Origin: Psococerastis gibbosa
Taxonomy: Eukaryota > Arthropoda > Insecta > Psocodea > Psocidae
Direction of reading: 5' to 3'
DNA length: 64,000 bases
NCBI GenBank assembly: GCA_963971405.1
Contig: OZ020488.1
Location: 42,390,888 to 42,454,887 of the forward strand
Shown here: one piece after another, positions 3,101 to 60,369 of the stretch
Layout: every line of letters starts with the position of its first letter
How positions within the stretch are numbered: the first letter of the stretch is position 1
Position numbers and translations under genes: made by a program
The notes under the pieces: model-generated
The model's database searches: none
What the model was told of the DNA's origin: nothing
What the model saw: the letters and a program-made list of their open reading frames with translations, nothing else

Positions 3101-6100
3101 CGAAACCTTGCAGTATAGGATCCAGTCGCTCACACTTGGCTGTGCGTGGCGCTGGCCTTACAAGGTCTCCCCGTTGCCTCGTGTTGTAGGTGTGAGTGTC
3201 CCCGTTTTGTTTAAATGTCCCCCACATTGATTGATTGATTGATTAATCAGCTCAGAAATTCATTGTTGTTGTTGTTGTTGAAACTCAGAAGCGCCGCGCG
3301 CTTATTCAGAATCTCCAACTTCAGATCACTGATCATCTATTGCCTTTGGTGCTGCATTCTTGCGTTCTTTAATTTTTTTGCCAGTGCTAATCGAAACTTC
3401 TTTGGGTCCATTGCGTTTTTTATTTCCCTAGGAAGTCTGTTATACTCAGGTATTACGTCAAACATAGATTTCACTTGATGAATTATGGTAAAATGTGGCA
3501 GCAGAGGATGGCAGATTTTATACCTACTGACCATAGGCCTGCGACAGACTGAAAATCCTTTCACAATGGGTTACATCAAACTGAAATTACTGAATAGTTT
3601 CTGAATGAGTCATAGCAAATAAACCAAATACTTCTACTAGTAGTTCTCTAGACGTCTAGAGTGGGCCTAAAACAGACTACAATACAATACAATAATTAGA
3701 GTCCCTGACCAGCCAGAGCCGGATCGACCGTGTCAAACAAAAATAGCCACCCGAGAGGGTTTTGTACAAAAGAAGGAGGAGGTACTTAAATAGTCCAGCT
3801 CCGGGGGTCGTACTCATCCAAATTATATAGTGAGGCGTCAATAAGTCTGCTCTTAATATATGTTCTGAAATAAGCTGGATCCAACTGACTTACTAAAAAT
3901 GGTAGCTTATTGTAAGGCCGGTGTGCGAGTATCGGATAAGAATCCCTCGACTTGTTTAGGCGACACCTAGGCATATCAAACCCTTTTGCCGATCGTGTAT
4001 TATAGGAGTGCACCGAACTCCGAGCTGGCAATCCAGGATTCATCTTTACGGCCATTAGACAATTAAAGACATACTGACCATGAACAGTGAGGACTCTAGC
4101 GGCTTTAAAAAGGGGTCTGCAGTGATAGAGGATAGAAGATAGGAACTTTTTGTGACAATGTGGATAGCTCGTTTTTGTAGTAAGAGTGCCTTGCTTACTC
4201 CTGCAGAGTGCCCCCATGCCAGTATACCATAATTTATATGGGTATGAAACAGACCATGGTATGCCATCAAAAGATACTGCTCCGGCACCAGTCTACCAAG
4301 TTTACGTAGCAGGAAAGCTAAGAAACATAGGCTACAACTTGGAACTGAAGTGATTATTTTTGGTTTAGGTTTAGAGTAAATAGCTAGCACGGTAACTTAG
4401 CTTTTTACCAAATCAGAAATTTTTAGATGTAATCTGACCCTGCCATTATTTGCACGACGCTATAGTAATAAATATGATATTGTAAGTAGAGCATAGATCA
4501 AACTTACGCAACTGAACTAGAGTCAATTCTTTCAAGAATTCCCAAACGTGATTAGATATAATTTAAATTTGGTAGGTAGTTGACAATAGTATGCCTGTAG
4601 TTAGATTACGATGAAACTGTCAGCCCGGTCTCAACTACACACAGAACATAAAGCCCCGTCCAGACGCTCCGTTTTGCACAACGTTTTAAATCCGCGCAGT
4701 TTTAAGACGGAATGAAACCGTTGCAACTTTGAGCGTCCAGACGGTACAGTCTTGACGATCCAGTCTTGTATTTTCCGCTCAGTTTTGTGTGATATCGCCA
4801 TGGAGGAGGTTCTCTTGTGGTCAATTTTCGCCTGCTGTATTGTAAAAAAAAAAAGATTGGAACACATCAGAGGAACCGTTCGTTCAAAATGGTCACGGAA
4901 ATGGCTTTTAAAAAGGCGGGACTTTTCCCATATAAGATTATTGCGTGAATTACGTGACGAACCTAATGATTGGCGAAACTACTTGAGAATGGACATGGAC
5001 ACGTATATTTACTTATTGGAATTAGTGACACCGCATATCAAGAAAGAAAATACTTGTATGAGAGCAGCAATATCACCACATGAAAGGTGTCCACATGCAA
5101 CGACATGTCTGGTCAGGTCACGGTTTTCAGAGCTCACGAGCTCAGTTAACGCTGTAACTGTGCAGTCCTCCCGACGGACTCAAAACTGCGCAGTTTTCCG
5201 GTCCACACGCAACGTTTTGTCTGCAACGTCTTGAACTGCGGAGACAAAACGTTGTGCAAAACGGAGCGTCTGGACGGGGCTTTATATATCAACTTTATAT
5301 ACTGTACGTTTTACTGTTAACCTGTAGGGCTGGTATCACCTGCTTATGTTAGTTGTTTAGACTACACACCATACACAACACACATAAGCTGTCACTATTG
5401 AAAATAAGCAAAAATTGAAATATAATAAGAAACAAATAACAACGCGCAAGAAATGAAAAGCAATATGGCCGTTATGAAAAATATGCAAATATGCAAATGT
5501 GCAAAATACGAATACTGTGACGTGGTAGCAGACAGACCTCGCATTGCAGAATGCAAATGACATTGACGGAAATTTGAATTTTACTTTTTATAGAAATCTG
5601 TTAAAATGTTTATACTTAACATATCCCATGACGCCATTTTTTAATTTAAGTTTGTTTGTGATTTTACTCTATGATCATTGATCAATTTTAACTATGGCAT
5701 AGAGGAAAACAAAAATTTCCGTCAATGTCATTTGCATTCTGCAATGCGAGGTTGGTGGAAACCATGGAGCTAATAAAACTATGGAGCCACCATGTCGTAT
5801 TTCGGCTGTGCTGCAAGACTGAAGCCATGACCACGCCTACTTATAGGTGCATTTTGGCGGGAAATTCAAATTTAATAGTTTTATTATATGTTTTCTTTAT
5901 AGTTTTCTTTGTTGTTTCATATATAATTATATTTATTATTTACATTTATTATATATATTGTTTAAAATTTAAATTAAAAGTACTGAAAGATCTGCATTAA
6001 AAAATTTTATTTTTATCTAAAAGTAGGGAAAACTTTGCTTAAAATATTGTTTAAAATGTAAATTAAAAGTACTCCAAGTTCTGCATAAAAATATTGCTGG

Positions 6101-9100
6101 TTAGTTGGCATGATTTTCCGTTCTAAATAATCTTTAAATAATCAAATAAAAAATAAAATGTTAACATGGTATCAAATGGCAAAAGGCTCAATCTGGTCCT
6201 ATACTACGGAAATAGGCGATGTCAAGCGGCTTCAACCCGAATGTTTACGATGAGTCTATAGTTTTACTATGTCTATGGTGGAAACCCTGCCTAAGTCTTG
6301 AATGTCTGCTACCACGTCAACGTATTTGTATTTTGCACTTGCAGGTCGGTGGAATCCCCGCCTTACTGTCTGTCGTCTTCCCGCTTGAACCACACGCATG
6401 CGCCTTTTTTTGTGACGGTTTTTTTTCATCACAATCAATTGGCTAGAATATCTGAGGAGCTCCGAATTCTAGTTTTGTGTCAAGGAATCATGGTCAGGTA
6501 TCGTACAATAGTCAGGGTTGAGAGAAGAGAGAGTTTTGATCCAGCGAGGCGTTCAGTCTGGACATTAAAGTGGAAAAATTTTAGAGAATTACTAAAGTAT
6601 AGGAAGTTTTAAACTTGTGAATTGCGCGCGCAAGTCGCTTATTGGCTGAGTATTGGAGTTGCGCAGTAGACCTATTGGGGTTAGAAGATTCGATAAGAGC
6701 TGATAACAGAGGTAGCACCTTTTTGGAAATTCATTGACACACGGAGATTCGTGGAGTAAAGTTCTTCTTTCTTTTTGAATTAGTACCTCTGTAGAAAGTG
6801 TGTGTAGGTGCATGTATTCACAGGTGAGTCACTGCTACCTGAGTGTGTCCTCCCATGATATACTGTATGGTAGGCTAGTTCATAAAAAATTAAGACAGCG
6901 TTATAGTCTAGCTGGAATAGAAGGGAATAAGGTTGGATTATGAGCTCGGACAGGATAATAAGGTGCTGTATTTCTACCTATGTAAAAGGGAACAGATTTG
7001 TCCAAGAGTGAGCCTAGGTTCTCCTGCTGTCGGAAATGCTGCTGTCCAGAGTTGGCAACTACATGCCCAGACAGGATTTGAGAAGAGCGGAAGTTCTCAG
7101 AGTGTTGAGTAAAGGGAAATCGAGTAGGATGTGACAATTATTTTAATTTCACAGGGGTTTTTTCCCTAGGAAGGGATTGTTCGTTGGATTTGAGTGGTAA
7201 TCAAATAAATTGTCGAGAAGGAAGGAGGCGTGGATTAAGATTTCATTAACGGTCAGGCTACCAATCCGGATGTAGAGGAGTACGAGTGTGGGGAGGCATT
7301 TGGCCTTACCCGTTTCCCCTTCATGCCAGGAACCCAGGAGGTACCAAGGATGGGAGTGTTAGGAGTGGAATCTACGAGTACCAGAATATAAAAGATAAGT
7401 AAACGTGAGAAAGGAAAGAAAGACCGAAGTACCTATGGTTGAATTTAAAGGAAAAGTCTAGAAGTGTAATGAGTAGGTCGAGACTTGCTGTCTACAAGTA
7501 TGAGATGGATGGACGGATCAAGTATGGTGCCTAAGAGCGACTTGACCAAGTTCGTCTAATTCCAGTGTTGGTTTATTTGTAAGGGATGTATCTCAATGTA
7601 ATCCTACATCATTTGGGTGCAAAATGCACTATATTGTAGTGTGGTGGCCTTATATTGGCAAAAATGTACCTTTTATGATGGGTGTAAGAGTGGATAGGCT
7701 CCTGAGAAGTGCCTTTTATGCAGCTCGGGGTTGCTATCGAAATTGTGGTTGTAACAATGTTCTGTTTCAGAAGTCCTGCCAGGGCTCGAGCATCGGGAAA
7801 ATGTGTTATCTCGGTGGATTGTGAATTGAATTTTTCCTATGGTTGTTATAGTGGTGGGAGCGTACCTCTGATACTTTGGTGCGCGCTAAGTCGCAACTCA
7901 CAAATGTGTCTTTTGGGGACGTCATCCGTTACCCCTATCAATCTTTGAGAATACACTGTTAGGCTAAATAGCCCAGGTATTTCTTTTGTTGACCCCCGTA
8001 CCGAATCGTGGGCAACGTTTTGGAATTTTATTCCAGATTTTATTTTTTTTTGTGTTCGAGGAAACATTTTCCGGGTGTTCGAGTCTTGACAGGACTCGAG
8101 GTTGTTGAAACTGGAAACCCAACGGTCATTTTAGTGTTGAGCCACTACAAGACAATACCCATAGCGATGGAGGACATGGTCTAATTTCTCATAAGATTTT
8201 ATACTACGGTTTAATCTGGGAATTAAGAGTTGGAATTTTATTTCAGATTTATATTTTGATTAATTTAGGCGCTCATTAGAGCTACCATTCATACTTGAAC
8301 TTTTATTCAACTCTTATGAATACTCTGTAAGTGGTGACACGGTTATCAAAGTTTTTTTCTTTTATCGGCGTCCTAGTGACTACCATTAATATACTGTCTG
8401 ATCTCCGCTACCTATGGTACCACGGTTGGGGGAAGTTTATATACTGTTCACTGCTGGTTGTTCTTTGTGCTTTCAGCGACTACTAAGATTGGAGCCAGAG
8501 GCAACAGGATTTCTGCAAGTTAACGTATGGAAACAACAATGAGGGAGCAGTGCAAGTGCCTGGCCATTCTAGAGGTCGCTGGGAGCACAAGGAGCAGCCA
8601 CGCAGTAAATGAGGACGGCATGTTGCCGTACGTTCAGGATCGTACATGCTGTTGTGCTGTTGTGATATTCACAGGAAAATGATAAGTAGAATACAATTTA
8701 ATATCTTTATTATTCAATATCTACTGTGGTATCTTCTTTTCTGCCTACTTCGTGAGTCTTCAGGAGTTGGGATGTTCTGCAGGGAGGATGCCTTATTAAG
8801 ATTTTATTTCGATTTAATGAACATTATGCTAAGGCGTATTATTTAGATTTGAGTTACATTTTATTTAATCGAACTGGACCCATCTATCGAATTCTTAACT
8901 GAGCAAAATATATGGCAAGTCTTCCTTGGAGGGCATCTTAACTCTTGGTTGGCTGGTGTGTTGTCTGCTGCTGAGGCGTGGAACTTCCTCTGTTTCCAAA
9001 CTAGCTAGTAGTACATGCCGTACGGATACGTGTGAAACTTAATCTGCTATTTAAGTGAAAATAACCAGGTAATGCTATAATATAGCTAGTAAACATTTTG

Positions 9101-12100
9101 TATCCGTGATCCAAAACTACACACTGTCGATTCTGCGACATTTTGTCGCGCTAAAATTCAAATTCCTGTAGATTTATATTTCTGCACTAGACTAAATTAG
9201 TAGTTTGGCCAGGCTGATGCAGTAAAAAAACATGAAGATAATACATAACAAACGAAGAGGTGCTCCAAAGGATAAACGAAGGATGGTCTTTAATTACCTT
9301 TACATCCATGAGAAGAGCTAAGTGGATGGGGCACTTAATCAGACATACTTACTTACTAGCCAACGCCCACCCTTGACATGTCGGCCATTTGGTGACGCGC
9401 TGACCAGTAGCAACGTGCTGTGATGTGGAACTCGTCATCCTGATCATTACAATGACATGAACAGACATGAGGGACTCCCTAAGGTGCCCATTCCACATAT
9501 GTACAACGTCAATGAAAAATTGAAAAATGACGTCAAAATGACGTAAATTGACGTGGTAGCAGAATTTTTAGTATGTCTTTAATGTCTGCTAAAACGTCAT
9601 TTTTCAATTTTTCGTTGACGATTGAAGTATATGGAATACCCCCCTTAGCACTATAATAGAAGGCAACACATTGAGGCCACCTATGTCAGAGACTAACCAA
9701 GGAAGGCGTAGACACAGAATATACCTCAAGTAACATGTGAGATGGGGAACCTACTTGGAGCTCAAGGAAACGGCCGGGGCAGAAAAGAATGGAGGCGAAG
9801 ATGGAATGATTAGCTTTGAACAATCGATAGATTGCGACTAAAGCAGAAGAAGACTACAGGGAATAGTTAGTCGAATAACCTTAATTGCACGGATTTTGTG
9901 GTGCCACTAAATTAACTCTACCGTGATCGATGGATTATTGGTAAGCATTAGCATTACATGCTACTATCAACAATAACAATACTCACTTTTTGCAGTTAAT
10001 CCCGCCCCAACTTTCACTGGACACAGCTGGAATTGCGTGGTCCATGTCGTGGTCCAGGAATTGGCCCCATTGCATGACCATGTGGGTCACGTGGTCATCG
10101 GCTGTGACGTCGACGGTGGAAATTACGCTAGTGGATACCAGCCGGGCACTGGGCTTGGGGTAACCAAAGTATTTAACTCCCTTGGTCCATCCTGCGAATG
10201 AAAGAATCCATGCTTAATAAGTTGTCCCTATTACCCGATACGTACTTCTTATACTTCTTACTTCATGGTGCAGACGTCCAGTGTTGATCTCGTACATATC
10301 CAGCAATTAGGCTTCAGCCATCAGATTCCTTGCAGCCCAATAGAACACATAATCCGGTGAACCTCTGCTATTTATCTCTGAATTTACTTTTATTTCGCCA
10401 TAAGGTGTTCATAACCCTTTGATTCCTTAAGCAAAAAAAAAAAAAAAAAACCTTTGATTCGCGCATGTTTGACTTCTTGGTCTATTCATTTGCAAGCTGG
10501 GTTTCTATGAACGGAAAGAATCTTACCAACAGGCATCGAAAATCCATCCTCGTAGATGGGACTGAGCATTCTGACAAAAGGCGTAAGGGAGGCCCCCCAT
10601 ACTGGGTTACGCAGGTTGTTACAGCTGCCGTCGATGCTGCGGTACTTGCTGTTGTAACACATGTCTGTGCAGTTGACCTTGGTTCTATGGACCATGCAGC
10701 CCGAGAGATTAGCCACCAGTGCTAGTTGTGAAGTGGTCAGAATGTCCTTGTACCTGAAATCTAAAGAAAGTCACAGGTTATATTTGCGCGTGGAAAAGGC
10801 TGAAGGAAGATGAAGAAGGGGAAGAGTGAAGACCCGGGAATAAATACAGGAACCAGATTGATTTCACTTTAACGGTCCCTTGGCCCTCCCACGGGGACGG
10901 CGGCACGGATCTTCAATTTCCAGGTGTACAGGTTATGTGCATCTTCTGGCGACAAAGCGAGGTCCTACCTCACTTTTGTTTCTTGGGACATCTTTGGTCG
11001 TCCTAGTTGTCTGGCGCCCTCCACCAAATAGTCACTCACACGTTGTAGCAGGTGTCTATCTTCTCTAGTCTTCGTGTGATCCCAACATGCTAACCTCCCT
11101 GACTTTTTCGGTGATAGGGGCTACCTGAAGTGCTAAGTAAATCGCAATTGAAAAGACAGGAGGGGGTGGAGAAGGTTAACGTATCACCGGGGAACTGAAG
11201 CTGATGATGATGATGATAAATAAATAAGGGCTTTTTATTGTTTCTATTACTAAGCCAACCTAGCGGAGTTAGGGCTATAAGGCCCACTCTTACACTCAAC
11301 TAGGAAGGCCTGCCTGCTTTACATACCCTCCAAAGCATGGTCAGAAAATGTAGCCTGTGTGGGACTCGAACCAACAACCTTTTGGGTGAAAGTCAGAGTC
11401 CGTACTACTACGCTACATGTCCTGACATGATGATGATGATGCTGTAACTTCATGTAGTTGTAACAATTTTCTTTCCTTCTTTCTTGCTTATCCCATACGT
11501 TTGTACATACCGTCACTAAGGCTGACTTTCATGCCCATTTCGACATGCCGTCGTATCAGAAACAGAGTTCGCTCGTACACCTCCGCAGCTCTCGCAACCT
11601 GCCGCGCTGCTGCATTCGGGAACCTGACTAGCGTCATCAGCTCGTTGCCTGACAGCGGTTGCCGGTGTAGGTTTTGCAGTGTGTTGTTGACGGCCTGGTC
11701 TATGTCGCGGGCCGCTTCGACGGCCGCCTGATGGATCAGGGAGTCAGTGGTACGAACGGCGAGCACGTCTCCTGCAAATTATAGCATCGTTTTATGTATA
11801 GATTGAACAAAATTATTGGGCAAATAAATATCATTTCATTTCCCTTTCAATTCATTTTATATTTAATTTCATTTTAAATCTCACCTTTGACCTGAAGAAC
11901 ACCCTGTGCCGCAACCTTCCCATAATCATTCACAGCTGAGCATTCATACAACCCGGAATCCGCACTAGTCAAGTTGTGCAAGTACAAACTACCGGCTGGA
12001 GAAATCCGTCTATGATTTTCTACTTCAGTGGCCACCTGACCATCCTTCCGCCATATGATAACGGGCCTGGGCTCCCCATCAGCACGGCAGGGTAGTTCCA

Positions 12101-18100: not shown

Positions 18101-21100
18101 ATCGAAGTCGATAGTATACATCAACTGTTCTTGTGCGGGCTTGTGGTCGAGCGGTTAAGACGACGCCCCGGTCAGTCGTAGATCGTGGGTTCGAATCCTG
18201 CCAAGCCCTGTTTTTCTATATCCTCCAATTTCTGTTATAACGAGTTTCAACCAAAGTTAATCTAATGTCAGTGTTATATATATACCATATAACACTGCCT
18301 ACAATATAATGTGTTAACTAAAGTAGCATACTTAACTCACCAAAGCCTTGCTTATGAGGTTCCATCCTGGCTACACGGGACTTGGTCTCCCCCATCGGGT
18401 TTTTGGCGACACATTCATACACTCCCATGTCGGCCTCTGTGCTTTTCTCAATCATAAGGGTGCCATCTTTCAGGACTGTGTACCTGGGATCTGACAAACT
18501 CAGTTCTTTCCTGAAAGAGAATAAGGGAAGAGTTATCCATGTGGCGTTTAAATCGAATATAAAGTGGAGCTGAAGAGGGCGTGCCAGGATCGAGGGGAGT
18601 GAAGGCATCGATGCCACATGGTGCTGCCAACACCAGCCAGCCGGCTGTAACTTGAAGAAGAAGATAGAGTGGCGGAAGACTATATACTTACAGTAGACTT
18701 CGACTCTTCGGATTCCATAGAATTTCTCGGCTTAAGGTTGCATAACTTTAATTTCGTGTTAAGATGGCAGTCCGCAGCTCAGGCAATCAACGATTCCGCA
18801 GTCTTTTTAAATTCTTTTTTATAAAAGATTATTCGCATGCAAACAATTTAATTAATGTATCCGAATAACCTCTTCAGTCCCAGTGTAAGCTATTTTATCT
18901 CACCATAAGGCAAATACAGTCAAAATATTAAAATGGCCACTCAAGACTCAGGCAATGAACGGCTCGCAGCAGTTGTTACCCGAGATAAAGTGTGCAGAAC
19001 TTCTGCATCTGCAATACTGTTGTCTGTCCAGCTTCTTGACCATGTGGTAATTGTTCATTTGCTTATATATTTTCTATTTTTTTTTTTTTTTTAAATATTT
19101 TGTTTGTAACCTGGTCGAATTTCCCTCCATTACTATATGTGACTAATGCCATCCTCTACGTAGGCCTGCTTTTGGCCATACTTAGCTTATGGTTAGACGC
19201 GAATATTTTATTTTCGTTGTCAACGCAATGAACTACGCCTCGCTCATTCACAAAACAGAAGTTCGTACGGTATTACCCGATATACCACGAATCGTATTAA
19301 GGCTATCCTTGCTAACTAACCAGGGACGGTTTCAGAAAAAGTTTTCGGGGGGGGGGGGGGCGGTGACCTGAAAAATATCGTGTTTCCCTTACTTGAGTAA
19401 CAATTTCTCTTCATTTCCTTCAAAAGTCCATTCTATCTAGTATAAAGCTATTTTTCTCCGGGGGGGGGGGGGGGGGCGACTGCCCCCAAGGATCCGTCCC
19501 TGTAACTAACTAAATTGGGTCTATATAGTTGAGTTCATATTATGGCAATATAGTCAGTGGCAGTGGCGTATATAAGCCCCCCCCCCCCCCCCGAAATGGG
19601 GAAAAAGTTTGAAAAAAGTATGACGAAATAAACTATAATGCCAGCTGTAATGCATCATTCGCCAGAACCAATGTAGGGCCTAGATGTTTCGGCAAACAGT
19701 GTGCGGTAAGCGGTTTGGTTGGTAGAATGCAACACCGCTTTGGGCTTCTACCCGTGGCAAAAAGTTTATAGCCAGCCCAGATCTGGTCTTGCCCCCCCCC
19801 CTCCATATTATATGCTCGCCACTGATTACACAGGTACTAATATGTAGTAGTAGTAAGCCATACGATTATATATAGTATACTACTAAGTAGTCCACAATGA
19901 ATTAAGTTAAATTCGACGCAGTAGGTACATAGCCTACAATATTCGTACTGTGTTTAATTCTATTATTTTAGGATAACTTACTTATTTTGCAGCCAAACAA
20001 TATCAGGCTCCGGGTCGCCATCAACTTTACAGGTGAAGAAGGCAGTTCCGCCAAAATTGACTTCCACATCGTGCGGCTCTTCCATTATTTTCGGCTGCCC
20101 TGTAAAAAAAACATTAAATTTCTACTTATAGGCTTAGGCTAATTGCAATGTAAAGATTATATTATTACTATAATTTACTAGCCTAGGCTACAATATAATG
20201 TATATAAATGAATAAATATTGTCTTCTTTTTAACTTTTTACTTAATAATTCAGAGGAGAATACAAGAGGTCATACGACCAAAAACCATCAGTCCTTCCCA
20301 AGGACTAAGCCTGAAGATGGGAGTAGCACCCACCCCCGAAACGTCGCCCCCTTCTCCTGACAATTAATGGGCTCCGCGCTAATTGGTCGCTAACCATGAG
20401 GCCCATGCCTCTGATGACTATTAACACAGCAGGTAATGCAAGTCCAACTAACCCTTTGTTAAATAGTATTACAACATTCCCTTTACCTTTACAAAAAGGT
20501 AAAGGTTCTCAGCTGAGACTGAGGCTGAGCGCTATTTTAGAAGTGCACATTCAATTTATAACCTCACTTTGACAGTTAAAAACGACGCCAATAAGGTACA
20601 TGTAGATTCTGATTGTCTGAGATCCATGGTGATGATGGGGTGACTCGCGCACTGGGGAAAAAGGTACCATGTAGGTTGCCCAAACGGCCGGGGTATGGGT
20701 TGCAGACTTTGGAAAAGGGACCTAAAAACTGCCCATATATGTATACGTATATGGAGCTTGTTGGGCCGCAACACCTTCCTCTTTGGCCTACTTCAAAACG
20801 TTTTCCTTACGGCAGTGAAAGTCGGCGTCTGACATAGCGGCCAGGTCTTTGCCTTCCATTTCAACAGGCTGGGCGCAGGTTGCTGACGTCTGCGTACTGC
20901 GTCCGGTGGTTTTAAGCAGTTTGACCAGCCACAGCATATTGCAATCACAGACCAAAGCATTGCTGTCAAGCCTCCTAAACAGAAAAAGACAAAAATACCA
21001 GTTCAGAGTTGCCTCGTCAAGCAACCGGCCGCCATACCAAGTTGAATCCAGCGGACCAGAGCAGATTCAAAGCTGCAGATAACTTGGTCGTGTGCACAGT

Positions 21101-24100
21101 GCCGGAAGGGAAATATGGTAGGACTTGTCCTGGTCACCTCCGAACTAATCGTGTGAGTTCACTGTGTTTCCCAAGTGGTTCGGAATCCACTATAATCAGG
21201 AGGTCCACTGTCCTAGGGGCTGGCATAGGACAGTCAAGTCGGGGTCGCTCTATGGGCCCAAATGAGGCCTAAGTCGTTATTAACCCGACGAACACTACTA
21301 CTACTACTACTACTATGCCTCGTAAAGCACTTGCGTGCGTAAATTCCACTATTTTGGGCCTATTATTTTTCAAAATAATTCCCCCGAGCCCCCCTTTCTT
21401 CCAGTAGGTCTACTATTCTTCGGCTGTAAAACCTAAACATTATTAGAATAGGTTACAAGACGTATATACGTCAAAATGTCTAAAACGTTTTTCAAAAACC
21501 TTCCCCGAGGGTGACCCCTGGGGCCCCCTTCAGCCCCTCGACCCCTCGGGTGGGGAAATTAAGATCATGCCCCTAATTAGATGATGCGTACGTCCATGAG
21601 GACGGCTTTCCTATTTATCTACTATTTTACGAAAAAACGGGGGGGGGGGTGCCAAATGAAACACCACCCCATTCGAAAACCTATCGTAAACGGGCAACTT
21701 TATTTATTGAAGTTGCATGATAACTGGACCCCCTCCAAAAAAAAAAAAAAAATTCTGGCTATGCCACTGATAACAACTACCCCAGTGTTAACAAGTTGCA
21801 TTGTCTATTGATTTTACAGAATAATGTGGGATTTGCATAAGTAGTCAAAATCTCATGCGAGGCTGCTCTAGAGGTAGAGATCCTCAAAAAAGGGTCGCAA
21901 CCAAATTAACAGTTTCCAAAAAATACTTAGTAGGCTACTTTACTTTATCCAATGCCAGCTGTTGGCATCTCTGCCATTCGCCGATGAGCCTCCCAGTAAA
22001 GACGCATGGGGGTTCTGTCCTGGTAGTTGGAGAAGGCTGCGCAACCCTGTAGGTGTAGACCGTTTCCAAAAAATAAACCTAAATAATTCACAAAGACAGA
22101 AAGATCAAAAACTTACAATCGACTGAGGTGTTTAAGATTCTCCAATGCGCCCGAGGGGATCCTCGCAATCTTGTTGTTGTGGAGAAACCTGTGCAAAAAA
22201 GGCCAATTAATTTGTGTCGGAGAGCAATTAATTATCCCTACAGCGGCAGTTAATTTGGATAAGTTGGTTAATTAGCTAACGCAGATGTCACTCTTAGTTA
22301 ATCCGGCAACATTGTTACCATCAATCAAGTCGCTTTGTTGTGCTATATGTTAGCTCAAGGTGGTCGGTCTTCACTGTTAGCCTAGGTTCTTCTTCTTCTA
22401 TAAATTCCTCTTCTATCGAAGATTGGCTATCATTTTTACAGTAAAAATGGCGGCTATGACTTCCAATTAGTAGGGAATCCGTCGAAGATGACCCAGCAAG
22501 GCCGAGAAGGCCGGTCACTACGAAGATGATCCCAAAAGTCGAAATGTTGTTTTTGATGGTATAGGTACGCCCCTATGCATGGTGGCTTCCTTCTGCTTCC
22601 ATTTTCCGTAACTTTGGTTACAGTGAGAGTTACCCTAAAAAGTTAGAAGTTTATTGGAGGCAAAGCGGCGCAATCGAATCTTATATTAAATAAATAAATA
22701 AACAATCATGTATTTGCAAACAGACCTAAAAGTCCAATAAAATGCAAATCATATACAGAATATTGAGTACCGTAACTTACAATTGAAATTCCTTCATGGC
22801 ATAATTTTGTTTTTCTAAGTTACATAAAATATACAATAGACAGTAGGCTATATAATTATCAAACTATCGAGTAGAAGAGAAGTGACAGAAATAAATTCCA
22901 ACTGTTAGCCGGCTATTCCACTTTTCAATTTTTCTTCAAAAATAAATGATGAGATTATAATAATATATAATATAATAACAATTTACAACATTATATCAGA
23001 GCATTATTTCTTTACTCTATGACCTATGTCATTGTCCATTATAACTTTTTTAACTTCCGTCTTCCGCATGTTAAAATTGATCAATAATTATAGCTTTGCA
23101 AACAATAACGAACTAAAATTAAACAAAGGCGTCGTCTGGATATGATAAATAAATTTTAATTAATTTCTTGAGAACAAACGAATTATTTCATAATTAAAAT
23201 CATCAAATTTCTTGTAGATTATAAAATTAAAAGAAAGACGCCTTGCAAACTTAAAAAATTGGAAAATACTGAAATCAAAAATGGTCAATTATTGAAGACA
23301 AGACAAGTGGAAAAATATAAATGCAACATTCATGATTTTCCATCAATGGCATTATCAAAATTGAAGAAAAATTGACAAGTGGAATAGCCGCCTTAGTATA
23401 AACCGTATATAGCTGTAGGTACTCACCGCAGTATGAAAAAGTAAAAACCTGAAATAAAAATTATAATATCTAGACTAAGAGCTTATTAAGCATGCAGTGC
23501 AAAAAGGGGTGCATATAGTTCTACTTACAGCCGCTCGAGGCGCGTCAGTCGTGCGAAAAGGTGGGGGTGCAAAGACTCTAGTTTGTTGTAGTGCATATAC
23601 CTGCAAGGAACCAGAATTTACTCACAGACGCTGTAGGGCAGGCAGATTCGAAAAAGTAAACTTCTTGAGTTCAATCAAATCGTTATGGTGTAAATATCTG
23701 AAAGAAATTTAAGTTTACCAACTGTCTAATTGCTTCATGCGGGGTGTGTAGCCTATACTAATATTGCATTCACTATATAAAACCTAAGATAATATAGACG
23801 ATAAGAAGATAAAAATGTAGGTGGAAATTTTAATGAACAAATGGTGGACAAAAAGGGACATTCCAGAGTCGAATAAGAGCGGTTGCAAGGTTTTAGGTTC
23901 TGTTCGCAATGCGTCCGGTGTACTGTTGTTCTCAAGACCAATTAGATAACACGTAAATGTTGCCAGGACACCCCTGTCAGGTGTAGGGTGAGGAGCGTAC
24001 GCAAGCCTAAAGATTTGACGAGTTAACTTTAGATAGAATTGGGTTTCTTTGAGGAATAAACACAATATGAATGTGATGAATAGGTATACACATAATAGGG

Positions 24101-27100
24101 TTAGCATGAAAACAAGACTTTATAGTCGTATTGTTCACCTTTTGTTTATTTGTCAATAAAGTCAATATAGTCTTATTGTTCACTTTTTGTTTAGACTATT
24201 TGTCAATAAAGTCAATATAGTCGTATTGTTCACCTTTTGTTTAGACTATTTGTCAATAAAGTCAATATAGTCGTATTGTTCACCTTTTGTTTAGACTATT
24301 TGTCAATAAAGTCGTTTTTCAATTAATTCATTTCATTTCAATATGCATATAAAAAATTGCGGGATATTTAAACATTATGATTAAACATGCGGTAATGAAT
24401 AAGATTTGAATGTTGATCTTCCAAAAAAATGTAAATAAACGCGCCAAAACTAATCAATTTATTCGAACTTTTGTTACCCCCCCCCCCCTCCGGATCCAAT
24501 CCTAGCTACGCCCATGGGTAAACACTCCCATCATTGCAATTTCCAACTGGCACCGGTACCTGCTGTTTATACCTGTACACAACATCGCAATAAATAATTA
24601 TTTCTATGTCGGCCTACTATCAATGGCGGATCCACGGAGCCTTGACCCCCCCCCCCCTTAAATAAGTAAATAAGACAGTAAAATATTTTTTTACAAAAAC
24701 AATTCTCGGGAGGGTGGGGGTATAGGCTGCACACCTACACGTGTGACCCCCCCCCCCCCACCGCGTAAATTTTGCGCTGGAACCGCTCCTACCTACTACT
24801 ATTGTATGCTTCCTCTCTGTGCCTCTATTCCGTTATTGCACTAATAAAGGTAGATTGAAGAGTCGATATTCTCTCCGCCGGTCCTAGGTCTACCTATAAT
24901 AATAATGAAATTTCCTTTGAACCAATTTGTCCAGGAATTCGCAGCCCCCTGCAAATTCTGCAGCACTTGCAACAGAGTTAACTCTAATAACACGATTCTG
25001 CTTCTATCCTCAGGCATTCAAAGCAATAGCGAGCAAAAGTGATAAAGTGAAACCTTAATCAAATTGCTGTCTCAACTCAAAGAGATTCGCCAAATCTTGT
25101 CAGTCAGAAGCACGGCATGGAGAATCTAATACTGTACTATTTAATCAATGAGTCCTATGGGCCCACACCGTGGCCTGGGACTGTGTCAAACCATACTACT
25201 ACTACTACTATTTAATCAAACTTTATTCAGACAATACGCGAGAATGAACTTGTGAGGTCTCTATGATTAAGAGATACGTCATTTTGCATTCTAACTTTCC
25301 CACAACGTCATTTGTATTATATATGGGGGGGGGGGGAGGGTACTACGGGTTCCTGTTTGGCGGGGATTCCACAGACCTGCCAGTGCAAAATACAAATACG
25401 GTGACGTGGTAGCAGACATTCAAGACTTACGCGGGGTTTCCACCGACCTCGCATTGCAGAATGCAAATGAAATTGACGGAAATTTTTGTTTTACTCTATG
25501 CCATAGTTAAAATTGATCAATGATCATACAGTAAAATCACAAACAAACAAACTAAAATTAAAAAATGGCGTCATGGGATAAGTTAAGTACAAACCTTTTA
25601 ATAGATTTCTATAAAAGAAAAATTCAAATTTCCGTCAATGTCATTTGCATTCTGCAATGCGAGGTCGGTGGAAACTCCGCCTAAGTCATGAATGTCTGTT
25701 ACCACGTCACCGTATTTGTATTTTGCACTTGCAGGTCTGTGGAATCCCCGCCTTTGCATTTTATGATTTAAGAAATTAACTAGGAGGGGGAGGTTTCATA
25801 GAAGTCTACACAGTTCCACTGAAGATGTCGACCGCAGATGTTGACGAAACGTTCGGAAGTACGCTTTCTGAACGACCACGGCCTATCATCCCGGATCCTA
25901 CTGACTCGTCATATACATATATCGTTTATGTAATATTTATTTAATGCCATTCCATTTCAGATCAACTACTGCCCATCAGCCCACGGATTTTACTCTGTCA
26001 TCATCTATTAATTTGACTTCGGCCTCGGGGCATGTAGAGTAGTGGTATACAGACTCCAGTTAGTTAGTTAGTTAGTTAGTAATTTTTGAAGGACTTTTTA
26101 TGGACCCAGGCCCTTGTACAATGCCAACGACCCCATGTATTTCGGACATTATTTGTATTGCTTCCGTATGAATTTTTGGCCATTGGTACCGATTCCAACT
26201 TTCACCCGAAAGGCTGTTGGCTCGAGTCCCCCACTTTCTAAATTTTCTGGCCAAGCTTCGGAGGGCATGTAAAGCTGGTGGTCCCGAGTCTTCCTAATAG
26301 AGTGTAAGAACTTTATAGCCCTAACTTCGCTAGGTTGGCTTGGTAATAGAACAAAAACGTCAATATTTATTTATTTAGAAGCCTAAGTATACGAGTAATG
26401 ACTGAATATTTTGCCGTATCTTCTCCTTTTCACAACAACAAACATGGGGGGGGGAGGATAAATAACAGGCTAGGGTTGTACAAATACACGTTGGAGGGGG
26501 GGGCGGGAGGGGGTTAGATCGTAGATGAAGGGGTAGTGACACGACACACCGGATGTGAGGCAGGGCGGACGGAAGTGCCGTAACAAAGCTCTGGACAGGC
26601 ATTCCACGTATTTGTACCAGCCATTTATCAAAACACCCCCGCGACGTTGTCATTGAGCAAACACAATTTCCGGTAAGCAGACAGCAGTTGTAATAGCCCG
26701 CTTTTTTCAAATTCTCCTGTCATCACGGCTTGTCATTTAGCGTCAACGAGGGTGTTCGAAACAAAGATGTTTTCAGAGCACAATATTCTTAAGCTGCGGT
26801 AAGCTTGGGGGGGGGGGGGTCAAATAAAAGCTTAGTTAAGAGTGTACAGCCCGTAGGAAAATGGCAGCCCGAAATTTAGTATTTTTTATTTAATTAACTG
26901 AGCAAGTTATTAAAAATTTGGTTCATCTAAGTTGTAGAAGACTACTTCATGGATCATATAATAAGGTATTTGTGATTTTCAAAATTGTAGTTTTTTCATA
27001 AACACGATTTTACGCGAAAAGTTATTGTTTATGAATTATTATCGTGTTTATGAAAAATCTACAATTTTGAAAATTAAAAATACCTTATTATATGATGCAT

Positions 27101-30100
27101 GAAGTAGTCTTCTACAACTTAGATGAACCAAATTTTTAATAACTTGCTCAGTTAATTAAATAAAAAATAAAAAGTATTAAAATTCGGGCTGCCAATTTCC
27201 TACGGGCTGTACACTCTTAAGGGACGGATTCTACAATCCGCAGATAAAGTACTATATACTTAAGTACAATTTCATTCCCCATCGAAGTTGACAATAAATT
27301 TGACCTGAATCAACTTCCTATTGCACTTATACCGGTCACTGTAACCTGTGTAGTTATTTAAAAGTTAAAAAAATTGAAACAAACAATGTATGAAACCCAT
27401 TTAATGTCGTCAAAAATGGAAAAAAAAAATGTAGTTTTGAACATGCTGGAATACAGGAAAAAATGTAGTGGACCAGATCATTCAAACAGAGCAATAAATT
27501 TTGCCAGTTATGACGTTTTTCTATGAAAAATGATACATTTATAAAATCTATTTTTACTTGGCCCTTCGTTGACAAGTCGCCTGTTTGCAATAAATTATAA
27601 ATTTCTCGTCAGCGTTTATATACAGTACAAGTATACAGCAGTGTTGTGTCTACAACGGGCGTAAAATTTGCCAATAAATCTGCAAATTAAAAATAATCTT
27701 TCGTCTTCATTGTTTTTTACACTTATGAAGAGCATATGGGATTCTGACATTATTTGTTGGTAAGTCTGGCCGACACTTAAATAAATAAATAAAATTAAAT
27801 ATAGATTCAGGTAAATATAAGAATATAAATATAGAATCAGGTAACTTCAAACAAGGTTTTAGGTGCCCATTCCACCGACCGGCTAGTGCTATTTACAAAA
27901 ACAGTGACGTGGTAGCAGACATTCAAGACTTAGGCGGGGTTTCCACCGACCTCGCATTGCAGAATTGACGGAAATGTTTATTTTCCTCTATGGCATAGTT
28001 AAAATTGATCAATGATCATACAGTAAAATCACAAACAAACAAACTAAAATTAAAAAACGGCGTCATGGGATATGTTAAGTACAAACATTTTAATAGATTT
28101 CTATAAAAAGAAAAATTCTAATTTCTGTCCATGTCATTTGCATTCTGCAATGCGAGGTCGGTGGAAACGCCACCTAAGTCTTGAATGTCCACTACCACGT
28201 CACCGTTTTTGTAAATAGCCCTAGCCGGTCGGTGGAATGGGCGCCTTAAGGATGTTTAACATCTTGCTCATTGTCACTTGCAGCCGGTTTGATAATGAAT
28301 AGCAATTGGGTGAGGGCAGCCTGAGAAAATTGCCACTGCATGGTTCCCTAGCCCCCAGAGTCCGTAGCGACCTAGATGCCAACACATAGTCGAAGCTATA
28401 TCTCACCGCAGGTACGACTCAACGCCAAGGGAATTTTCGAAAAACCACCCATATATTTATTGTCCGGCCAGGAATTAAATAAAAATGAAGTGTATTTATT
28501 CCAATGAGTCCACGAATGTACAGGATGTGAAAGAGCATTTAGGCTACAGAGATTGAGCATGTATTATGGATCCAGTTACGTTACCAATGACCTCAGCATG
28601 TGTTCAGGTCTACCCTTTTCGGCTTTGATTAAACTTTAATTGAAACGAAAACGAAACGAAGTACCGGCTACATAGTAGCATGATACCAATAGAAGCGCTG
28701 TCGATTGGAATAATAAAAATCATGCAAAAATTCATTTTTGATGGAAGCAAAGTACGAACTTCTCAAGCTATAGTACGGTACCATAAAATACAGTATTCGT
28801 AGAAGTCTCCTGGTGTTCTTAGATTACTTCAATATAATTCAATTCCCCTGATTACACACACTAATTCCTCTTATTCTTCTTCTTCTTCTTCTTCTGGCTC
28901 TACAGCCCTTGATGAGTTTTGGCCTGGTCGACAACACTCTTCCAATCGTCTCGCTTTTGTACAACGCTCCACTACCTGCGGTCTCCCAACTCGCGAAGGT
29001 CAGGTTATAACTCATTCTTCTAGCGTTTTCGAGGATTACACACACTAATATTGTGCAATATCCAATGAAATATATTTGTCTAAGAAAATGTCTTCTTCTT
29101 CTGCTTTTTCTGGCTCTACAGCTTTGGCCTGCTCGACAACACTCCTCCAGTCATTTCGGTTTTATACGACGCTGCACCAACAACGGACTCCCAATTCGCG
29201 AAAAATTGTATAACAACAAATTTCAAAAAAATTCAGATTCAAATCGTATTTAAAACTAGATAATCCAAATATACATATCTTCGTTAGAATAAATATCTCA
29301 GAAAGACTAAATACTAGAGTGTGTAATCAGAGCCAAATGAACAAGACGAAAACTGTTAGTCATATTTATCAACAGTGCGGGTTGAATTTTCATATTTTGG
29401 CCCAAAAGTCACCACAAAACTACTACGGCTACTATAAAAATCATGCTTTTCATTATAATGAAAATTGAGGAGGCAGGAGACGAATATACGGCCATCAATT
29501 CAAAATAAGAGTAAATTTTTTGGAAAGAACAGTCCGTAAATTCAGAGGTATATTACTTACAGTTGCTCAAGTTTCGGCAGGTCCTGGAAAACTTTGCCCT
29601 CGATTTCTCGTATCCTGTTCTTGTAAAGATATCTGTAACAATTATTAAAGTTATGGGCATACAATTGATGGTAAAATACAGCTAAATTTCACTCAATATT
29701 GTGACGTATGTTGACAGCAGAAGTCGGGGGGCACGCCATATTGTAGGCCTATTGTAAAGAATATTACACGAAGTTTGTTCCCATCTACAATTGCTTATTT
29801 ATCCATAATTCATATAATACGGGACAAATATATAACAGGAACTATTGGTAAAGGTTAATGACAATGGTGTATCCCTATTTAACAAAAGGTTAGTTGGACT
29901 TACATTGCCTGCTGTGTTAATAGTAATTAGAGGCATGGGCCTCATAATCATTGAACAGTTAGGGCGGAGCCCATTGTCAAAGGAAGGGGGTGACTTAGAA
30001 ACCCACTGGTGTTAGCCTAAAACCCTGAACGCTTTCGGCAAGAACTGCCATCTACAGAGGGAAACCCAATAGCACAGTTACACCTTATCTGCGATTTGAG

Positions 30101-31697: not shown

Positions 31698-33036
31698 CTG
31701 TAACAAAAGAAAACATATTTGTTAGAATTTACACTGTGCAAAATTAGACTATAATCTGCAGTCTAGCAGATTTTCTTTCTGGGATTATATAGCGGGGGAG
31801 GTGGGAGCAAAGAGGATTATTTTTAATTATGATGTTGATGAGACAGGTCTAGGCACACTCAGTATCAGTATACGTAATCAGTATAATATAATTTCCCGTT
31901 GAAATACCAGAACATACAGTACATAGCTGGATTCACATCGTCAAAACTTAAAGTAAGAACTAAAAAATATAGTAATATTAACTCAAAGTAAAGGTTATCA
32001 CTACGGGGGTTTTGTCTGAACATTACACGGTACTCGTACCGTACATACATTTGGCATTGAAGCTGATTCCAAAAGAAATTTATATACATAATCCGAAATA
32101 CATCCATCCAGGATTACATTTTCGTCCAACGACACTCACCATCGGGTAGTGGTTAGTGCTTTCCAATTAATACGTAGTACTATATAAGGAAAGCTTTGTG
32201 ATGGTCGAAATTTTCGATTTCGGGATTTCAGTGTATTTACACGTTTTAAGGTCCTAAGAACCCAAAGAAGTGGTTTTTATGAAATGTCTATCTGTCTGTT
32301 CGTAGATTTGTAGGCAAACTACCCAGACCCAGAGGATTTTGAATAATTTGGCATGTACCTAGGTAGGTTCATAAAAATCGTTCCTCCGGACCATTTATTT
32401 TTATTTTGGGCTAACTGAATTTGGGGGGTTTCACCCTCCATAAACTAAAGGAACTCATTAAAAAATGTTTTCCCAAGAAACGGCTCCATTCGCTGGGGAA
32501 GCAATTGACCTTCTCCACCCCCCCCCCCCCCAAAGATACATAAAAATAAGCTGTTGTGGCAAGGACTCCAACTTTCACCCGACATGCTGTTGGCTCGAGT
32601 CCCACACTGTCTTCATTTTCATGCCCATGCTTCGGGGGATATGTAAAACAGGCGGTCTCTACATATGTGCAATAATGGTAATGCTAGTCAAAATCTCAAA
32701 AAATCTCAAATATAAATATCTTTTTTTTTAAGAATAATATTCAATACATTCTTAGATTTCCAGGATAGAACAATAAATTTCAACGATTCTAAACATTTTC
32801 AAATGTAGCCTTCAGCTACCCTCCAATATGGAATACATCAATATTGGTTGCAGAAGGTTTATTCATTTTTGAAAAAGGGAAGCGGCAAAACAAGCCCCCG
32901 AGCAAAACAATTTGCAATCGAGGTCTATATATAGGAAACATAGAAATTGAGCTGAAATGTTTTTCGAATATAGGCTTGCACAAAACTAGATTAAACTGGG
33001 ATTTTTGTTTTCTATCAGTCAGCCCAGCTTAGCATA
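31698..33036. other. Upstream DNA with no exon found
   Basis: Immediately 5' of the first LRR exon on the minus strand. Holds SINE-B remnant at 32549-32665 and a C-run at 32518. I looked for the LRR N-cap exon (C-x-C pattern ending in a phase-2 donor) and did not find it. Confidence 0.45.
32549..32665 (+). mobile_element. SINE-B copy 3, central part
   Basis: CAACTTTCACCCGACATGCT, B-box GGCTCGAGTCC, GCCCATGCTTCGGGGGATAT and ACAGGCGGTCT. Ends of the element are lost. Confidence 0.7.
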
Positions 33037-34553: not shown

Positions 34554-34947
34554 GACGCGGTTTCCACCGACCTGCAAGTGCAAAATACACATACGGTGAC
34601 GTGGTAGCAGATATCATTAATAAAGGCGGAGTTTCCACCGACCTCTCATTGCAGAATGCAAATAACATTGACGGAAATTTCAATTTTTCTTTTATAGTAA
34701 TCTATTAAAATGTTTGTACTTATTATATCCCATGACGCCATTTTTTAATTTTAGTTTGTTTGTTTGTGATTTTACTCTATGATCGTTGATCAATTTTAAC
34801 TATGGCATAGAGGAAAACAAACATTTCCGTCAATGTCATTTGCATTCTGCAATGAGAGGTCGATGGAAACCCCGCCTTTATTAATGATATCTGCTACCAC
34901 GTCACCGTATGTGTATTATGCACTTGCAGGTCGGTGGAAACCGCGCC
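34554..34947. mobile_element. Fold-back MITE copy 4
   Basis: A 394-bp copy: GACGCGGTTTCCACCGACCT at the left and the complementary AGGTCGGTGGAAACCGCGCC at the right, with TAA on both flanks (34551-34553, 34948-34950). The orientation of the central TGATCGTTGATCAATTTTAA block is opposite to that in copy 3. Confidence 0.92.
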
Positions 34948-36760: not shown

Positions 36761-37135
36761 GGTGCCCATTCCATTGACCGGCTAGGGCTATTTCCAAAAA
36801 CGGTGACGTGGTACCAGACATTCAAGACTTAGGCGGGGTTTCCACCGACCTCGTATTGCAGAATTGACGAAAATGTTTATTTTCCTCTATGCCATAGTTA
36901 AAATTGATCAATGATCATACAGTAAAATCACAAACAAACAAACTAAAATTAAAAAATGGCGTCATGGGATATGTTAAGTACAAATATTTTAATAGATTTC
37001 TATAAAAAGAATTTCTGTCAATGTCATTTGCATTCTGCAATGCGAGATCGGTGGAAACGCAACCTAAGTCTTGAATGTCTGCTACCACGTCACTGTTATT
37101 GGAAATAGCCCTAGCCGGTCAATGGAATGGGCGCC
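36761..37135. mobile_element. Fold-back MITE copy 5
   Basis: A 375-bp copy: GGTGCCCATTCCATTGACCG to the complementary CGGTCAATGGAATGGGCGCC, TAA on both flanks (36758-36760, 37136-37138). The matching terminal change ATTGACC/GGTCAAT in both arms is notable. Confidence 0.92.
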
Positions 37136-42269: not shown

Positions 42270-42512
42270 AATAAATAACTAAATAAATATTGAATTTATA
42301 TTATATTTGTATATTGTTCTATTACTAATTACCTAGCGGAGTTATGACTATAATTATTAGCCCTCTCTTACATTCAACTAGGAAGGCCCGGGACCGCCTG
42401 CTTTACATGCCTTCCGAAACATGGCCAGAAAATGAAGCAAGTGTGGGACTCGAACCAACAACTTTTCAGGTGAAAGTCGGAGTCTGTGCTACTACTCTAC
42501 ATGTCCTATGCC
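42270..42512 (-). mobile_element. SINE-B copy 4
   Basis: Reversed full-length copy: on the minus strand ACATGTAGAGTAGTAGCACA, B-box GGTTCGAGTCC, GCATGTAAAGCAGGCGGTCC, then AATAATTATAGTCATAAC and TTATTTATTT tail. Confidence 0.85.
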
Positions 42513-44480: not shown

Positions 44481-44926
44481 CCACATTTGCCACATTTCAA
44501 ATATACATACCCATCTATACCCTGTGTCAAAGTCCATACCAAATAGAACGCTTTTTTCCAGTGCCGGCATTTTAACAAACATCCTTCAAAGGCATCCTGT
44601 ATATGGTAGTAAGCATAAGGAACGAAGCAAGCTGAGTGGAAACTACAAAAAACAATAAAAGATATCCTGAGAAGGGTTGTGTTGAACATTCTTCCTCCAG
44701 CCCCCCCCCCCCCCTTCCTGCAACTTCAATCCAAACTTTTTCACTGATTAAAGGGAATCCCGGCGGATTTTGTAAAAGTGGTAAAACGAGGGGCACGTGC
44801 ATTGATACAACCAGCCGTTTGGAAAAATTTTTCCTCTCTTGTAGTTTCTAATGGATTAAATTAAGGTTCAGATGAGTCTGTGGCTAAGGTAGAGCCGCCT
44901 AAGGCCCGGTACACACGGACTATTCA

Positions 44927-45140
44927 GGACATGTAGCGTTGTGGTATGGACTCTGACTTTAACCCGAAAGGTTGTTGGTTCGAGTCCCACATTGGCTACA
45001 TTTTCTGGCCATGCTTCGGAGGGCATGTAAAGCAGGCGGTCCCGGGCCATCCTAGTTGAGTGTAAGAGAGGGCTTTATAGCCCTAACTCCGCTAGGTTGG
45101 CTTAGTAATAGAAACAATAAAAATTCCTTATTTATTTATT
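44927..45140 (+). mobile_element. SINE-B copy 5, full length
   Basis: Starts GGACATGTAGCGTTGTGGTA, has TTGTTGGTTCGAGTCCCACA, GCATGTAAAGCAGGCGGTCC, ACTCCGCTAGGTTGGCTTAG and a TTATTTATTTATT tail. About 214 bp. One of the cleanest copies. Confidence 0.9.
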
Positions 45141-48111: not shown

Positions 48112-48484
48112 GAGAAAATGCTGTTTTGGCACCACAAATATAAATACTTTGCATTTTTTATTTCATTAACTCGGCAAGTTTTTTTAAAAGTTGGCTCATT
48201 TAAGTTGTAGAAGACTACTTCGGGTATTTTTAGTTTTAGTTTTTTTTTAGTTTTTCCAAAAACCCTATTTTACGCGAAATTTTAGTCCCGACTCCCCAGT
48301 GGTTTTTGTGAAGGAACTAAGGTAGTAAAAATTTAATATTTCCTATTATATGATGCATGAAGTAGTCTTATACAACATACATGAGCCAAATCTTTAATAA
48401 CTTGCTTTGTTAATTAAAAAAATAAATAAAAAGGCAATATAAACAGCAAATTCTGGTTGCTAATTTTCTACGTAGCATGTCCTC
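48112..48484. mobile_element. TTAA-flanked MITE, copy 2, diverged
   Basis: Interior shares TTTTTTATTTCATTAACTCG, GTTGTAGAAGACTACTTC and ATGATGCATGAAGTAGTCTT with copy 1. Right end CATGTCCTC precedes TTAA at 48485-48488. The left flank is TTAG, a mutated TTAA. Arms have diverged much more than in copy 1. Confidence 0.75.
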
Positions 48485-50204: not shown

Positions 50205-50760
50205 TTTGCAGGTTTGCAGCCGGTTTGCAGTAGGTTGCCATCGAGGAATTATACCGGTTTGTCAATGGCTCAAAATTCTTAAGAGGAAGCTGGCTGCACA
50301 CATTGGCCACCCCTGAATCACCCTAAAATAGGTTGGTTTATATTTTTTATTTAAGTTAATACTTCAAGTTACATAGATTTGGTCTAATCAATTGATAGAG
50401 GACTACTTCATGCATAGCACTACGACGATTTATTTAGTTTTGGTTTAGGGGGTTTTCCGTGAAACTGATAAGCGACAGAAATCCACCGAATTATCGAATT
50501 CATGGAAAATTATACCAACAAAAATGAAAAACACCTTATAATAGGGTGTCCTCTAGCTATTGAGTAGACCAAATCTTTATAAATTTAAGTATTAACTTAA
50601 GTAAAAAATATAAACCAACCTGATTCAGGCTGATCCAGGGGTGAACAATGTGTACGGCCAGCATCCTCTTAAGGAAACAATATAAATAATGTCCGAAATC
50701 CATGGGGACGTTGGCATTCGACAAGGGTAGGCCTAGGTTTGTAAAAACGTCCTTTAGGAC
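50205..50760 (+). mobile_element. SINE-C copy split by a TTAA MITE
   Basis: SINE-C runs to CAAAATTC at 50278 and resumes after the MITE with GGAAACAATATAAATAATGT at 50673. Removing 50283-50668 and one TTAA rebuilds the sequence seen in other SINE-C copies. Confidence 0.85.
50283..50668. mobile_element. TTAA-flanked MITE, copy 3
   Basis: 386 bp; ends GAGGAAGCTGGCTGCACACA and, complemented, GAGGATGCTGGCCGTACACA. TTAA on both flanks (50279-50282, 50669-50672). Arms share GGACTACTTCATGCAT and TATTTTTTATTTAAGTTAAT motifs with copy 1. Inserted within SINE-C. Confidence 0.92.
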
Positions 50761-53596: not shown

Positions 53597-53981
53597 GGTG
53601 CCCATTCCATCGACCGGCTAGGGCTATTTACAAAAACGGTGACGTGGTAGCAGACATTCAAGACTTAGGCGGGGTTTCCATCGATCTCGCATTGCAGAAT
53701 GCAAATGACATTGACGGAAATGTTTGTTTTTCTTTTTATAGAAATCTATTAAAATGTTTGTAATTAGCATATCCCATGAAGCCATTTTTTAATTTTAGTT
53801 TGTTTGTTTGTGATTTTAGTCTATGATCATTGATCAATTTTAACTATGGCATAGAGGAAAACAAACATTTCATTTGCATTCTGCAATGCGAGATCGGTGG
53901 AATCGACACCTAAGTCTTGAATGTCTGCTACCACGTCACCGTTTTTGTAAATAGCCCTAGCCGGTCGGTGGAATGGGCGCC
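53597..53981. mobile_element. Fold-back MITE copy 6
   Basis: 385 bp, GGTGCCCATTCCATCGACCG to the complementary CCGGTCGGTGGAATGGGCGC, TAA on both flanks (53594-53596, 53982-53984). Confidence 0.92.
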
Positions 53982-59974: not shown

Positions 59975-60369
59975 GGCGCATATTCCACCGACCTGCTAGT
60001 GCTAAATACAAATACGGTGACGTGGTAGCAGACATTCAAGACTTAGGCAGGGTTTCCACCGACCTCGCATTGCAGAATGCAAATGACATTGACGGAAATG
60101 TTTGTTTTCCTCTTTGCCATTGTTAAAATTGATCAATGATAATACACTAAAATCACAAACAAACAAACTAAAATTAATAAATGGCGTCATGGGATATGTT
60201 AAGTACACACATTTTAATAGATTTCTATAAAAAGAAAAATTCTAATTTCCGTCAATGTCATTTGCATTCTGCAATGCGAGGTCGATGGAAACCCCGCCTA
60301 AGTCTTGAATGTCTGCTACCACGTCACCGTATTTGTATTTAGCACTAGCAGGTCGGTGGAATATGCGCC
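59975..60369. mobile_element. Fold-back MITE copy 7
   Basis: 395 bp, GGCGCATATTCCACCGACCT to the complementary AGGTCGGTGGAATATGCGCC. TTA on the right; GAA on the left, a mutated duplication. Confidence 0.88.

Follow-up and report, generated by a model that had tools for sequence, protein, structure and literature searches.

Matched outer arms in a fold-back MITE family of Psococerastis gibbosa point to arm-to-arm copying

The locus and its fold-back elements

The window analysed here is a stretch of 64,000 nucleotides of the Psococerastis gibbosa contig OZ020488.1 (assembly GCA_963971405.1, positions 42,390,888 to 42,454,887); all coordinates below are those of the window. Its minus strand carries an animal haem peroxidase stretch and three Ig I-set ORFs (2250-2690, 11877-12494, 15619-15960, and 18321-18731), an order suggesting what we take to be a peroxidasin-like gene. 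If so, the repeat elements at 5489 and 9483 would sit in its introns. The window also contains two matches to the tRNA family, at 18137-18209 and 58715-58787 (the second barely above the threshold); these stretches are 80% identical over 100 bases and are possibly tRNA-derived SINEs. A 50-bp unit is repeated in four tandem copies at 24121-24313, and a dispersed repeat of ca. 100-215 bp occurs at six loci (11216-11425, 26184-26380, 32553-32657, 42312-42507, 44924-45140, and 62553-62770), its copies being ca. 78-93% identical. One long palindromic element (26836-27220) begins with TTAAG, ends with CTTAA, and matches 48126-48472 at 71-74%, while another (50278-50673) has CTTAAG at both start and end. 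Finally, an element at 4648-5285 has inverted ends of ca. 60 bp and an ORF (4716-5234), whose peptide may resemble the N-terminal part of HARBI1-like transposases; Pfam did not confirm this reading, and a phmmer search of PDB with the peptide of 4716-5231 gave nothing.

A BLAST search of the window with positions 27801-28300 as the query recovered all seven copies of a fold-back MITE that had been claimed in the initial annotation (Table 1; copies are referred to by their first position). Six of the seven have both ends, and intact copies are 375-395 bp long. Copies 27862, 36761, and 53597 form subfamily A. The insert in the damaged copy 5489 (5764-6276) has imperfect inverted ends ATAGACATAGTAAAAC and ATGGAGCTAATAAAAC and is bordered on both sides by GGTTTCCACC, which looks like a 10-bp duplication. 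The family has the properties expected of MITEs, as its members are short, non-coding, dispersed, and have terminal inverted repeats, and five of the six intact copies are flanked by identical 3-bp sequences. In particular, none of the 24 stop-to-stop ORFs of at least 110 amino acids found in the window lies wholly within a MITE copy. Beyond the window, an exact 23-mer had no match in viral_contigs, and an exact 20-mer had none in genome_contigs or viral_contigs, collections in which animal DNA is not expected.

Four of the six two-ended copies have TTA or TAA duplications, in agreement with the four clean ones counted in the initial annotation; one of the other two has TTT on both sides, and one lacks a duplication. 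TTA and TAA together make up 5.2% of the trinucleotides in the window. The 3-bp TWA duplication is the mark of PIF/Harbinger elements, and TAA/TTA is given as the duplication of mPing in a section of PMC10288884. Since most duplications are of the TWA type, the family is likely to belong to PIF/Harbinger, an assignment drawn from these duplications. To that extent the Harbinger assignment made initially stands; its other component, a transposase with matching ends, was not found among the window ORFs of at least 110 amino acids, as none of the 24 yielded a transposase in Pfam (E up to 0.001-0.01, and for four ORFs also up to 10).

Table 1. Fold-back MITE copies, arms of the reference copy, and related elements in the window.
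Feature	Positions	Strand	Remarks
Reference MITE copy, subfamily A	27862..28245	+	GGYGCCCATTCC ends; TTA/TTA duplication
Reference copy, outer left arm	27862..27932	+	71 bp
Reference copy, inner left arm	27933..27974	+	begins with GGCGGGGTTTCC; 11-bp deletion common with 36761; inner end approximate
Reference copy, inner right arm	28122..28174	-	begins with GGTGGCGTTTCC; inner end approximate
Reference copy, outer right arm	28175..28245	-	71 bp
Subfamily A copy	36761..37135	+	TAA/TAA; private changes matched across arms in columns 15 and 34
Subfamily A copy	53597..53981	-	TAA/TAA; three arm variants on opposite loop sides relative to 27862 and 36761
Stem extension in right arm of copy 53597	53722..53726	+	GTTTG, the loop-edge sequence of the left arm
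MITE copy with GGCGCATATTCC ends	59975..60369	+	no difference between the outer arms (71 bp); GAA/TTA flanks without duplication
MITE copy with GGCGGGGATTCC ends	25359..25752	+	flanks TTT/TTT
MITE copy with GRCGCGGTTTCC ends	34554..34947	-	TAA/TAA; unrelated block of ca. 12 bp in both arms
Damaged MITE copy	5489..6362	-	GGCGGGGATTCC end at 6362, opposite outer end missing; contains a 513-bp insert
Related MITE	22908..23392	+	TTA/TTA; GSCGGCTATTCCAC ends; loop core ca. 75% alike, arms otherwise different
Related short fold-back element	9483..9644	+	unmatched ends GGTGCCCATTCC and GGGGGGTATTCC; TAA/TTA flanks

In each of the six copies, a 71-bp outer inverted segment encloses an inner one of ca. 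53 bp, which is 10-11 bp shorter in the left arms of 27862, 36761, and 53597. The outer arm (71 alignment columns) opens with a motif like GGYGNNNWTTCCACCGACC, the inner segment opens with a terminal-like motif, most often GGCGGGGTTTCCACCGACC, and the loop between the arms is ca. 145 bases long. The reference copy folds into one hairpin at -127.7 kcal/mol (z -22.6), while shuffled sequences average -38.8 (sd 3.9) and none of 100 folds as well. The alignment of the arms and this fold confirm the earlier description of two nested inverted segments forming an almost complete hairpin. One MITE nested in another was considered as the origin of this structure and rejected: in most copies, TTA and TAA flank the inner segment in inverted, rather than direct, order, and hence no insertion duplication is seen. 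Columns 44-53 are invariant across all fourteen arms, and the related element at 9483-9644 also carries TGACGTGGTAGCAGA, corresponding to columns 44-58 of the MITE arms; this stretch may be a candidate protein-binding site.

Matching of the outer arms and its limits

The arms were compared in six complete copies from this single 64-kb window. Copy 5489, whose right arm is truncated and partly deleted, was not scored in the distance, pairing, private-change, covariation, and simulation counts; it served as a comparison in the private-change count, and its right arm was omitted from the trees.

Within copies, the outer 71 bp of the left and right arms show 16 differences over 426 sites; across copies, opposite arms show 383 over 2130. 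Arms of the same side also diverge between copies (185 of 1065 sites for left arms and 203 of 1065 for right arms). The outer difference within copies (3.8%) is below the loop difference between copies (6.8%; Fisher p 0.016), a comparison given little weight because copy pairs are not independent. Among the 720 possible pairings of left and right arms, only three, the true one included, give a within-pair difference as low. When a single subfamily A copy is kept alongside the three copies outside that subfamily, no other of the 24 pairings does as well as the true one in any of the three sets; within subfamily A it is no better than chance, with three of six pairings as low. Hence the matching is chiefly between subfamilies. 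We rejected CpG decay producing the same change twice as its source: without columns 2-4, 14-16, and 59-71 (other CpG-type columns being kept in), the observed value of 10 is still the minimum, with 4 of 720 pairings as low and a mean of 42.2.

The initial annotation had noted that the terminal 15-20 bp vary between copies while both arms of a copy carry the same variant. There are indeed four such variants, alike in the two arms of each copy, but the matching spans the whole outer 71 bp. Within the first 20 columns, the arms mismatch only in column 2 (34554), column 3 (27862, 36761, 53597), and column 14 (53597), and those of 59975 and 25359 do not mismatch at all.

The inner arms behave differently. 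In columns 72-104, 18 of 198 sites differ within copies and 93 of 990 between them, and a total no higher than that of the true pairing is reached by 318 of the 720; in columns 105-124, with 6 of 88 sites differing within copies and 24 of 440 between them, every one of the 720 reaches it. On the stem alignment, two-sided changes occur in 24 of 71 outer pairs versus 2 of 53 inner pairs, and for the structure as a whole none of 500 shuffles reached any of five covariation measures. The private changes, defined as states found in one copy only, follow the same division: in the outer arms of the six copies, 15 sites (seven events) are changed in both arms and eight sites in one arm, while the inner arms have one matched site versus nine one-sided ones. 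If one arm is taken from each copy, singletons fall on average at 22.4 of 426 outer sites, of which 4.9 are absent from the sister arm, and at 8.7 of up to 318 inner sites, of which 7.1 are absent; the loop has singletons at 24 of 859 sites.

Two copies illustrate the outer events. The loop of copy 36761 is separated from that of its closest relative, 27862, by only 3 differences over 136 sites, and yet this copy has matched private changes in columns 15 and 34. Copy 34554 has its unrelated block in both arms, at 34612-34623 and 34878-34889. Even if up to three mismatches are allowed, this block matches nothing else in the window.

Phylogenetic trees of the arms show a similar pattern. In the outer-arm tree, four of the six copies group by copy, namely 34554 (support 100/99), 36761 (78/85), 25359 (76/76), and 59975, whose arms are identical; bootstrap support for 36761 and 25359 is below 80. 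Grouping by copy is absent for the outer arms of 27862 and 53597 and for the inner arms of all six copies. Thus, the proposal that arms are nearer to their own partner than to the same side of other copies holds for four copies in the outer segment, two of them with weak support, and fails for 27862, 53597, and the inner segment. Clustering of arms by side, the outcome contrary to the initial annotation, is rejected, as constraining the seven left arms to one clade yields p-AU of 6e-81. Together, the covariation contrast and the lack of grouping by copy in the inner arms confine the matching to the outer 71 bp and place it mostly between subfamilies.

These counts bear on a rival explanation, in which arms mutate independently, nothing is copied between them, and selection alone operates, with only like-ended copies transposing. 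It would account for the limitation of the matching to the segment bearing the ends, and in the discussion of PMC10288884 the authors assign both TIRs to the PIF/Pong/Harbinger transposition complex. However, the same change would be needed twice each time, including the 12-bp replacement in 34554, and independence predicts 0.09 coincident private events in the outer arms, while seven are seen. In simulations with independent arms and CpG columns evolving ten-fold faster, 24 matched columns were reached in none of 2000 runs in five of six settings and in 3 of 2000 in the most extreme one. We regard this explanation as very improbable.

Proposed copying between arms and competing explanations

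The best fit is provided by arm-to-arm copying in a fold-back MITE, probably of the PIF/Harbinger type, with matched ends kept for transposition, and we consider this reading probable. In source elements, one arm would be repeatedly copied onto the other, by polymerase template switching in an extruded hairpin or by gene conversion between the arms. A change in one outer arm would thereby soon be present in both. Copies with matched outer ends would presumably be those the transposase could move, leaving each subfamily with its own matched end variant. In this scheme we infer the enzymes involved, a Harbinger transposase, and selection favouring matched ends.

As described in parts of PMC8604942, template switching between the arms of inverted repeats homogenises arms and inverts spacers, and its footprints, according to sections of PMC8794818, are stem extension, inversion of the loop, and multiple matched changes along the stem. 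Matched changes and stem extension are seen in the MITE family, and loop inversion probably also occurs.

The stem extension is found in copy 53597. The loop-edge bases of the seven left arms are GTTTA (two arms), GTTTG (three), and TTTTG (two), while the right arms read TAGAA in 27862 and 59975, TTGAA in 25359 and 5489, and TTCAA in 34554; 36761 lacks 9 bp of its right arm here and allows no comparison. In 53597, the right arm shares GTTTG with the left one and differs from all five other alignable right arms. This is good but not overwhelming evidence that 53597 carries a short directional tract copied from the opposite arm, as the tract is only five bases long and A/T-rich. A multi-base change identical to the reverse complement of the opposite arm, the criterion for template switching, describes both this tract and the block in 34554.

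Copy 53597 also has an exchange of sides. In columns 3, 74, and 77, the arm asymmetries common to 27862 and 36761 have their sides swapped in 53597, and the inner-arm tree unites the right arms of 27862 and 36761 with the left arm of 53597 (96/94, the bootstrap being unsettled). This pattern likely reflects inversion of the loop between the arms, graded no higher because two of the three swapped columns (3 and 74) are CpG-type.

Several observations stand against arm copying: the inner arms, which are nearer to the loop, are almost unmatched; divergence between copies is higher in the outer arms than in the loop, which copying alone does not explain; and the related element at 9483 has unmatched ends. 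As copying in a hairpin should reach the inner arms too, the contrast between outer and inner arms needs an extra factor, which might be a transposase filter for matched ends or outer sequence imported from relatives.

The same contrast weighs on a further explanation, a single-stranded fold-back intermediate in transposition or amplification, in which one arm templates the other in each cycle. In its favour, the hairpin is long and stable, and matching at the level of subfamilies rather than after insertion fits it. Still, the inner arms should then be homogenised too, which is not seen, and 27862 and 36761 retain shared asymmetries, including the 11-bp deletion in the left arm only. An intermediate of this kind thus seems improbable.

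More weight is due to the swapping of ends, although we find it rather unlikely. Here, matched outer arms would be gained as a set from diverged relatives by ectopic conversion or abortive gap repair, with a donor for each subfamily. Outer arms do diverge more between copies than loops or inner arms (17-19% in the outer arms versus 6.8% in the loops), and the zone rich in two-sided changes stops at the inner motif. Potential relatives also exist: the element at 22908-23392 combines a loop core like that of the family with different matched ends, and the first 14 bases of the 9483 element are those of the left end of 27862. On the other hand, the window has no donor of the 34554 block, both arms would have to be replaced jointly every time unless arm-to-arm copying followed, and the tract in 53597 is that of the opposite arm of the same element.

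Arm-to-arm copying thus remains the favoured reading, and of the two processes proposed in the initial annotation, homogenisation of the arms or repeated swapping of matched ends, the former is upheld in part. The outer pairing (3 of 720), the rejected left-arm clade, and the 53597 tract speak for it, while its reach is restricted to the outer 71 bp and mainly to differences between subfamilies. A more specific version, which we hold to be doubtful, is that the outer arms outpace the loop as a matched pair because every round of transposition, or of repair of an excised fold-back copy, rewrites one transposase-binding end from the other. If that were true, ends could switch specificity in a single step and found new subfamilies. 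Joint change of both transposon ends bears on the evolution of transposase specificity, and a multi-copy fold-back MITE whose outer segment is matched, and whose unmatched inner segment serves as an internal control, is a natural assay for it.

Comparison with known systems

A text search of the literature for MITE, template switching, inverted repeat, and Harbinger together found nothing, and searches for four end and arm motifs gave matches which, by their titles, concern other subjects. Like Tourist and other PIF/Harbinger MITEs, the elements described here are short and non-coding, occur in several copies, and have terminal inverted repeats and TTA or TAA duplications (in four of six copies). 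Unlike them, they have arms comprising about two-thirds of the element and two nested inverted segments.

In sections of PMC3169594, the Mutator/Foldback family Tm1 is described as having short MITE-like fold-back members with composite TIRs, which makes it similar, but also 9-bp duplications, tandem TIR motifs, and TIRs that are on average 93% identical per element. The Drosophila element Galileo is closer in behaviour. In the excerpts of PMC3573991 used here, its authors state 98-100% TIR identity within a copy with diverging subfamilies, propose arm extension by copying, and report 12 chimeric copies among 170, without matching duplications. Hence Galileo shares with our family the TIRs matched per copy, the diverged subfamilies, and the proposed TIR extension by copying, and its chimeras compare with the element at 9483. 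By contrast, Galileo belongs to the P superfamily and has 7-bp duplications and far longer, internally repetitive TIRs. The duplications of the MITE family are 3 bp long, rather than the 7-9 bp of Galileo/Foldback, and none of the 11 tandem repeats recorded lies inside its copies, while tandem TIRs are characteristic of that group.

Template switching at short inverted repeats resembles the process proposed here in arm homogenisation, stem extension, and spacer inversion, while the parts of PMC8604942 and PMC8794818 concerned describe it in protein-coding genes of yeast and in hairpins of rRNA and microRNA, and not for a multi-copy MITE family. Arm homogenisation in general is already known, and the MITE family is a clean new example of it.
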